Part shown: in pieces, positions 15,659 to 18,220 of the stretch
Position numbering within the stretch: position 1 is the stretch's first letter
Layout: each line of letters opens with the position of its first letter
Assembly: GCA_026874595.1 (NCBI GenBank)
Contig: CM049316.1
Coordinates: forward strand, 5,656,339-5,720,338
Direction: 5' to 3'
From: Sipunculus nudus
Taxonomy: Eukaryota; Annelida; Sipuncula; Golfingiida; Sipunculidae
Length of the DNA: 64,000 nt
Program-made: the position numbers and the translations under genes
The notes under the pieces: generated by a model
Seen by the model: the letters and a program-made list of their open reading frames with translations, nothing else
Database searches by the model: none
Told to the model about the DNA's origin: nothing

Positions 15659-16787
15659 ACTCTTACCAATTACAGGTGGAGTCATGATGGTGCTAATGAA
15701 ATCAGAAAGTGGCATATCAGAGGAAGGGAACATATACCTTGAAGTACAACATATCATACATACAGGAGCCATAGAGTGTTGTATGCAGGATTACGTGTCA
15801 GTTGGACGGGCACCAGCTGGACGGGTCCCATTTAGACGGTCCCAGTTGGACGGGTCCCAGTTAGACAGGTCCCAGTTGGACGGGTCCCATTTAGACGCTA
15901 TGTTTTATTTATGTGACTTAATTACAGCTTTATGGAGCTTTATGGGAAAGCCTAACTAAAATAATTAAAGTTTATATATGTTGATCAAACACAATATAGC
16001 TATGAAATTTTATGCAACCCCCTTATACCTGTGTACATGAATAATTGTTCAAAGAGCTCTAGATTTTAACCGTTATATTGTTTTCTTCCCTGACGTTTCT
16101 TTCGTGAAAACGGAAAAAAATCATTATATCCTAATATTATCTGTTTCTTCAGAGTTACAATAACGAATCGACATGCAATCAAATGTCAAATAAATTAGCG
16201 ATATCTACTATAATAACCGATGTGCGGTCGACATGCTCTGCCAATTAATGTAAATAAGCAAAATATAAGCTTACTTTTCGGAGAATTCTCATATTTTATT
16301 CCGATATATCACATAATCCATGTGCTGTCAGTCCAAAATTATGCACAATTCCAAGAAACAAGAGTAGAAAGTCAGTTTGGAAACCCCTTACAACATCAGG
16401 GATACATGACAGGGAAACCTGCACCCCTGGCCAGTCACAGCACTTCTAAAGGAAGGGAGGTCGCTTTAGAATTAACTTTTTGTGTGAATAATGAGACTAA
16501 TTAAGTTCCGTTTCACAATGAATATTATGGTACGGCATTTTATAAGTTCAGTAAAAACAGCCGATTACCCTTTGATAGGTGTTTTATTAATCAATAAGAC
16601 ATACCCCACAAACAAGGTAAATAGAACAACAGTTATCTCTCGTGGTCCCTTCTATTATTTATCGAAAATGAGCTGAGGAAAGGCTTTATGCATGTAAATA
16701 TACACATTTATGTTTGTCTGTGTTGTCGTATGTATTTATTGCTTTCCGCTAAATACGCGGGTAATATACGTACTTGGTAAATACATG

Positions 16788-16790
<3 letters not shown>

Positions 16791-16833
<43 letters not shown>
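16791..16833 (+). repeat. (AG)n microsatellite
   Basis: About 21 perfect AG dinucleotides inside the mobile element; they generate a run of Arg-Glu in an open frame that is not a gene. Confidence 0.97.
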
Positions 16834-16836
<3 letters not shown>

Positions 16837-17674
16837 TGCCTGAGAGAGATATGATAGAAAGAAAGGAAAAAGATGTTATTTTCATTAAAAAAAAAACGAA
16901 TGGTTTGAAAAATTAAATTATTACCATATAATACACATTCTTTTTATTTCACAGGGATCTTTAATGTTTGGTGGTTCATGTTAATCAACAGAATATTTAT
17001 CAAAGACCACTGTGCTGTTATTATAACAGTTACAACATGGCTGAGACAACCGGTGCGGAACGAAACCTAATCACAGTAACTGGTTAATTAACAAAAAGAT
17101 GCACCTATGTGGTTTCCCTTTGAAACGTGGTAATATGGGATGTACAGTTTTCTGATTCCTGTTAAGGTCCTTGAAGACAGTGATTTATACATAAATTTAT
17201 TTAAGGAGTTAATAAATCTATGTGAAATCTATCTATCTCTTTGTCTATCTATTTATTTATATATCACTCTGTCTATCTATCAACTAAAATGAAAGGGCAT
17301 TGTACGATACAAGTCCGTAAAGAATCACTGAATTTAATACTAAAATAATAGGCAGTGTAGGATAACCTACACCTGTGAGTAAAGAAGCATTGAATTCAAT
17401 AACCAAAGGCTATTTATGGAAGAAAAATATGTAACATGAAATGAATAACTCATATTTTATTGACTGACCATGTAACTCGGCTTTGAAATAAGGACAATTT
17501 TGATTTTAATGATATCACAAGCAAGCAATAATTATTTAAGCTCTGTACACAATCCATAAAAAATTATGAACTGCATTTATTTTAAGATAACATCTCATAT
17601 AAATTATCGTTCCAATAGATAAATTCAATATAGACTTCAACGATGCCAAATACATGACGTTTAAATGATTGCAT

Positions 17675-17827
17675 TTTATGTCGCCAGTTAGCCGGGTGTT
17701 CTATGTAAATAGGCCGTTCATCCTTCATGGCGTTGCAAATGGTTCGATATTTTCATATATACAATTAAAATGCTATATATATCTATATATTTATATATCG
17801 ATGTATATATATATCGATGTATATATA

Positions 17828-17860
<33 letters not shown>

Positions 17861-18055
17861 ATAAGAAAACAAGACAGCAAAATACCCTAGATATTGCAAG
17901 GCAAGTGATAAATAACGAGACAATGTAACGCGTCGCCATATAGCCAGTGGTCTATGCGAATGAGCCGTTCATCCTTCAGGACGTTTCAAACTGCTTGATA
18001 TTTTCATATATTCATTCATATCACTATATATAATATAAAAATGCATATATTATAA
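17675..18055 (+). repeat. Direct duplication around a TA microsatellite, within the mobile element
   Basis: 'ggccgttcatccttcatgg' near 17712 and 'gagccgttcatccttcagg' near 17962, with matching flanks ('gtcgcca' before, 'gatattttcatata' after), form two ~120-base copies. They are separated by a TA-rich tract (17774-17861). Confidence 0.85.
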
Positions 18056-18220
18056 CCTTTGTGTTTAACCCATATGTTATTGATAGAGCATCTGACTGGG
18101 ACCCTTCCAACTGGGACCTGTCCAACTGGGACCCGTCCAACTGGGACCCGTCCAGATGGGATCGAAAAAATCCAACCCGTCTATCTGAAACCCGTCCATT
18201 TGGGATGACACCGTATGCAG

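Follow-up and report, generated by a model that had tools for sequence, protein, structure and literature searches.

A probable DNA transposon family of foldback type with two unlike ends of 15-bp repeats in Sipunculus nudus

INTRODUCTION

Tm1, a Mutator/Foldback family of Meloidogyne, carries unlike 7-bp motifs outside arms made of 13- to 15-bp units (PMC3169594). Tm1 is reported to make target-site duplications of 8 to 10 bp, most often 9 bp, with no target consensus, and to have a purine-rich inner motif and a transposase of the Phantom type (PMC3169594). The duplications of Mutator-like (MULE) elements range from 8 to 11 bp (PMC6446971), and MULE elements have been reported in the genomes of bivalves and other molluscs (PMC10294476). 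Tetris of Drosophila virilis is a non-coding element of foldback plan with duplications of 8 to 10 bp, for which an autonomous copy was reportedly not found (PMC4079207). Galileo has internally repetitive inverted arms, duplications of 7 to 8 bp, and repeats that provide transposase-binding sites (PMC3688188, PMC4168063, PMC3573991). Rehavkus is linked with minisatellites (PMC6446971).

Here, we describe a 2,424-bp element in a 64,000-nucleotide stretch of the genome of Sipunculus nudus, the whole of which is referred to below as the window. An earlier note made from the letters of the window had called this segment a complete foldback-type element without a transposase. We conclude that the window copy is very probably a member of a DNA transposon family that has two fixed, unlike ends and no recognised transposase gene, is likely moved by cut and paste in trans, and carries 15-bp repeats that are predicted to be bound. 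It represents a new family of an already known kind, and no description of these 15-mers was found in the literature searched, where the three papers containing one of the sequence strings seem unrelated to judge by their titles.

Compared at the level of sequence organisation, the plan of Tm1 is the closest to that of the window family. Both have unlike short outer motifs, arms of 13- to 15-bp tandem units, and no target consensus, and in both most copies are without a transposase and small MITE-like forms occur. The two families differ in their sequences, in the length of the outer stretches (7 bp in Tm1 and 10 bp here), and in the duplications (mostly 9 bp in Tm1 and 8 bp here); moreover, a transposase copy exists in Tm1, whereas none was found in the copies read here. 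Tetris and Galileo are less close. The tandem repeats of Tetris (TIR-220), which seed satellite DNA, are longer than the 15-bp units in the short arms described here (PMC4079207), and Galileo has much longer, variable arms, long repeat units, and a known P-type transposase (PMC4168063, PMC3573991). Rehavkus differs in its 9-bp duplications and in a minisatellite that is listed at the C-terminal side and not in both arms (PMC6446971).

RESULTS

Layout of the window copy

The 2,424-bp segment is directly bounded by exact 8-bp copies of GTATGCAG, in agreement with the duplication reported in the earlier note. Both ends consist of tandem 15-mers in opposite orientation, as had also been claimed, and the consensus of the units in both arms is CAGTTGGACGGGTCC. 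Exactly 10 bp separate each copy of GTATGCAG from the start of the adjoining array. These outer 10 bp are unlike at the two ends, which we call A and B, and the same unlikeness recurs in other copies. The features are as follows.

15781 to 15788, + strand: left target-site duplication, GTATGCAG
15789 to 18212, + strand: element, 2,424 bp, with the A end on the left and the B end on the right; no stop-to-stop frame longer than 95 amino acids
15789 to 15798, + strand: A terminus, GATTACGTGT, which lies distal to the 15-mer array and is conserved among copies
15799 to 15902, + strand: A arm, composed of some seven CAGTTGGACGGGTCC-type units in tandem, the last degenerate
15903 to 18086, + strand: non-coding interior, common to the typical copies
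16791 to 16833: (AG)n within the interior
17680 to 17798, + strand: first member of a pair of direct repeats inside the element, each about 120 bp long (76%)
17774 to 17860: TA-rich run within the interior
17932 to 18050, + strand: second member of that pair of direct repeats
18087 to 18202, - strand: B arm, 15-mer array inverted relative to the A arm
18159 to 18172: AT-rich 14-bp piece in the B arm, also present in most of 25 aligned copies
18203 to 18212, - strand: B terminus, differing from the A terminus; its sequence, read inward on the - strand, is GGTGTCATCC
18213 to 18220, + strand: right target-site duplication, GTATGCAG

The 8-mer alone is not rare, as GTATGCAG occurs six times in the window compared with 2.19 expected. 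Of 200,000 random place pairs, 290 had an 8-mer mirrored within 30 bp, and in 1.7% of cases two 30-bp flanks shared an 8-mer at any position by chance. A search of the window for the 15-mer, allowing up to three mismatches, gave 11 matches compared with 0.21 expected, and 10 of the 11 lay within the two arms. The additional inverted match that had been described outside the arrays, GTGTCA / TGACAC, is present, but its two halves stand at unequal distances from the two ends, at positions 7 and 2. The two arms look collinear: when seven units of each arm were aligned one to one in their order, without the additional 14-bp piece found in the B arm, 86 of 105 positions matched, a value reached by 12 of 5,040 permutations. 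When the first and last units were left out, the corresponding figure was 4 of 120 permutations. These data provide moderate support for collinearity of the arms.

Two distinct ends recur across the genome

We searched the host assembly, which comprises 1.43 Gb in 153 contigs and has the window on C11. A two-unit 30-mer gave 290 genome matches with up to three mismatches and none for the reversed control. At the same threshold, end A (GATTACGTGT followed by 15-mers) gave 196 matches and end B (GGTGTCATCC followed by 15-mers) gave 200, compared with 3 matches for the reversed pattern in each case, and the family is dispersed over many contigs. The earlier note had proposed looking for inverted pairs of arrays elsewhere in the genome, and such pairs were found. 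Among 100 A ends and 100 B ends listed, of 396 in all, there were 44 facing A/B pairs within 6 kb, with a few ends counted twice where copies cluster; the length was 2.3 to 2.7 kb in 31 of these 44. Among the same listed ends and within the same distance, there were two facing A/A pairs, two facing B/B pairs, and four A/B pairs on the same strand. These eight pairs were confined to clustered ends at C8:9.6 Mb, C8:64.6 Mb, and C16:59.2 Mb, one of the three clusters being a nested copy.

Loci for examination were picked from 100 listed places among the 290 30-mer matches; the window itself and a joined locus of 10.5 kb are among the 40 loci examined. Facing A and B ends were present in 27 of the 40, where the 15-mers do occur as paired arrays, but 13 of the 40 held no complete pair. 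A..B pairs were found in 13 of the 19 loci of a first set of 20 stretches, picked partly for both arms showing, and in 13 of the 20 loci of a second set, picked by one arm, with the window as the 27th copy. The boundaries are constant, in that the 27 A..B copies share ends within 5 mismatches of 22. With 27 genomic copies bearing the same kinds of ends, 15 of them with an exact duplication, the description of the element as complete is supported. The median identity between copies was 87% (182 pairs with more than 900 aligned bases), and therefore most insertions are not very recent.

Some copies are much shorter than the typical form. L028, L044, and L051 are short forms of 279 to 296 bp with flanks that are similar between L028 and L051 and more loosely similar for L044, and they probably lie within a larger repeat that carries them. 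L047 and L052 are 665-bp forms that lie at two places on C3, differ by one base, and have identical flanks; they may represent a duplicated stretch or an assembly duplicate. Because of their common flanks, L047 and L052, and likewise L028 and L051 (less closely L044), are not independent insertions.

Target-site duplications and a nested copy

Comparison of the flanks, as the earlier note had suggested, revealed an exact 8-bp duplication at the ends of 15 of the 27 A..B copies and a duplication with one mismatch in a further 3. The flanks differed by two mismatches in 1 copy and by three or more in 8, such that 9 of the 27 have no clear duplication; two of these, L028 and L044, are short forms. 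As a control, the left 8 bp of one copy were compared with the right 8 bp of another, and 0 of 702 such comparisons matched. The duplication was 8 bp long in all 15 exact cases, a length that falls inside the 8- to 11-bp MULE range. The target sites (18 sites) showed no strong consensus and no palindrome.

One copy, L019, is nested in the B arm of another copy and is flanked on both sides by GTTTCAGA. When L019 and one 8-mer were removed, the host arm aligned to the arm of the window copy with a gap-free junction. Further in, the host arm is two units shorter than that of the window.

Inheritance and conservation of the arms

The A and B arms of 16 typical copies (2.0 to 3.1 kb, leaving out the more diverged L018 and L031) were compared. 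The mean A-versus-B score was 98.8 within a copy (n = 16) and 98.3 between copies (n = 240), far below the between-copy scores of 178.5 for A-A and 187.4 for B-B. As A and B are as unlike within a copy as they are between copies, the two ends appear to be inherited as separate parts, which speaks against frequent arm exchange by snapping back. The ability of the ends to snap back, raised in the earlier note, is possible on paper: the arm-to-arm duplex of the window copy has a predicted energy of -96.7 kcal/mol compared with a shuffled mean of -39.1 kcal/mol. This predicted stability is due to the arms being inverted repeats, and the within-copy arm exchange that snapping back might produce was not seen.

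In the same 16 copies, conservation was 93.8% for the A arm, 93.4% for the B arm, and 86 to 93% for the interior regions. The arms are no more conserved than most of the interior, and these numbers therefore do not point to selection acting on them. Within the unit, the core CAnnTnGACGGG was the most conserved part among 239 units that had been chosen by their likeness to the consensus (up to five mismatches). One or more 15-mer units are missing in some copies. The tandem repeats in the arms of Galileo are reported to hold multiple transposase-binding sites (PMC3688188), and by analogy with these we take the 15-mers to be multiple predicted binding sites.

Coding content and the search for a transposase

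The claim that no transposase is visible was borne out for the window copy, in which no frame exceeds 95 amino acids. None of the ten frames scanned was over the Pfam cut-off, the best match being to DUF3915 in the AG-repeat frame (17.8 bits compared with a cut-off of 26.9), and Rfam gave nothing over gathering scores. The longest stop-to-stop frame was at most 145 amino acids in 25 of the 27 copies, the exceptions being L010+L011 (374 amino acids) and L046 (225 amino acids). Frames of 104 to 145 amino acids in L024, L031, L045, and L049 appeared by eye to be low-complexity or run-on.

A full-length copy with a transposase, which the earlier note had proposed to look for, did not emerge: there was no autonomous copy with the same ends among the 27 copies or the 20 further arms sampled. 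All 20 of these arms match the known family beside the arm, L054 at only 70 to 75%. Further A/B pairs, beyond the copies read, stand at C8:26302098-26306568 (4.5 kb), at C8:59595244 (4.7 kb, with a B end that also belongs to a 2.4-kb pair), and at C6:64210758, where the lengths are 23.6 kb and 32.7 kb; the reading covered in part those at C11:53589605 (5.2 kb), C1:37440395 (7.6 kb, L021), and C1:110693665 (21.6 kb). No frame of 90 or more amino acids was present in the 2.4 kb read of the C11 pair (L071). In L021, frames at 2076 to 4001, beside the B end, resemble a DIRS-type retroelement (tyrosine recombinase) by eye.

Several longer loci were considered as autonomous copies and rejected. The extra DNA of L010+L011 (9.56 kb) holds reverse-transcriptase frames and is attributed to other insertions; one frame matched RVT_1 (5.4e-13), another did so under the cut-off (7.8e-5), and three others had no match. 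The 225-amino-acid frame of L046 (3.58 kb) has no Pfam match, and L034 (4.78 kb) has no frame longer than 82 amino acids. In L042, a segment of about 5.9 kb (646 to 6572) holds a cysteine-rich frame and one that matches an integrase core (rve, 1e-4, below the family cut-off), and as element sequence lies on both sides, this segment is probably an insertion. L034 carries a 1.7-kb insertion at element positions 893 to 2637, with TGTATCCGCC and its complement GGCGGATACA near the edges, that is perhaps another inverted-repeat element.

No transposase was found elsewhere in the window among 150 of 154 filtered frames scanned at an E value of 0.01; the only matches, in one frame each, were to Tmemb_9 (0.0062) and Orf78 (0.0068). 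Scoring of 150 among 252 candidates showed that there are at least 131 MULE domains in the genome, and none of these 131 came within 10 kb of any of the 200 ends listed out of 396. The shortest distance to a listed end was 11.5 kb, which, by estimate, chance alone would give. One FLYWCH-MULE locus, L050, was rejected as a partner: the 4 kb read contain no 15-mer array and one lone match with three mismatches. L050 has a 607-amino-acid open frame with FLYWCH and MULE domains at 582 to 2402 (+ strand), and a frame beside it on the opposite strand is C-type lectin-like by eye. The length of the L050 frame is shared by 43 rows of the MULE search, most with an equal score, suggesting a Mutator-like family that is both abundant and young.

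Searches of other collections for 15-mer pairs or the A end gave 0 matches in viral_contigs and 0 in genome_contigs, followed in the latter by one match on a bacterial contig that we took as chance. In phages, there was no match.

DISCUSSION

Mode of movement

We propose that the transposase is likely supplied by a different element elsewhere in the genome; action in trans is inferred because no autonomous copy was found. Such an enzyme would bind at the CAnnTnGACGGG core, each repeat of which would serve as one of several sites, pair one A end with one B end, and cut at the outer 10-bp ends, joining these to a staggered 8-bp target. The nested copy and the 8-bp duplications make this mode of movement testable, and the recurring A and B ends offer a concrete handle for finding the transposase. 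Precise ends, a duplication length, and a genome-wide set of copies are now given for a foldback-type family, and the general picture of how such elements work is left unchanged.

Choice of superfamily

As no transposase was recognised on any copy read, the family is filed here under no superfamily. Our tentative first choice, made by analogy because Tm1 has the same plan, is the Mutator-like superfamily (Phantom/Foldback type), the family being moved by a FLYWCH-MULE transposase of the same genome. Tm1 combines unlike 7-bp outer motifs, 13- to 15-bp units, and 8- to 10-bp duplications with a Phantom-type MULE transposase (PMC3169594); the 18 target sites here lack a strong consensus, as in Tm1, and the genome provides its MULE domains and a locus that combines FLYWCH with MULE. 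However, no MULE domain was close to the listed ends, L050 lacks a 15-mer array in the 4 kb read, and the exact duplications are uniformly 8 bp long, compared with mostly 9 bp in Tm1.

An origin in the P superfamily, with a likeness to foldback elements in structure only, seems unlikely. In its favour, the arms of Galileo are long and internally repetitive, its duplications measure 7 or 8 bp, and the P element makes 8-bp ones (PMC4168063), but the tandem repeats reported for Galileo measure about 140 and 210 bp and are for the most part found deep within the arms.

We consider equally doubtful an assignment to hAT or to another superfamily with 8-bp duplications, of the Merlin or Zisupton type. 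Merlin, Zisupton, and hAT elements all make 8-bp duplications, the length seen in all 15 exact cases. However, the hAT target preference nTnnnnAn is absent here: of the 18 sites, 8 have T at position 2 and 3 have A at position 7.

A more radical view, which we think quite improbable, is that ends A and B are permanently different machines, with a transposase that would accept only A plus B, an address of about seven 15-bp units per arm, and a strict 8-bp cut; the lineage would then stand outside the described Foldback groups and possibly have an undescribed transposase. Finally, that ordinary minisatellites came to lie as an inverted pair by accident, the 8-bp match being chance as the 290 mirrored matches in random pairs and the six occurrences of GTATGCAG in the window might allow, is decisively ruled out by the recurring ends, the A/B pairing, and the 8-bp duplications across copies genome-wide.

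Other features of the window

The window contains stretches that we take to be possible exons of a TOX-type HMG-box gene, recognised by eye at about 41735 to 42382, 58090 to 58370, 61779 to 61925, and 62430 to 62486; there was no Pfam match to them in the frames scanned. About 23.5 kb separate the element from the first TOX-like frame seen, with the element on the upstream side. A satellite-like array at 50966 to 52890 repeats a 34-bp unit some 57 times (90% matches), and an array at 55405 to 55937 repeats a 36-bp unit some 15 times (95% matches), with both strands open for about 190 to 200 codons. A repeat at 28486 to 29212 has a 278-bp unit in 2.6 copies. A dispersed repeat pair at 15210 to 15656 and 35531 to 35993 is 76% identical over about 465 columns, and its first member ends about 130 bp before the element.
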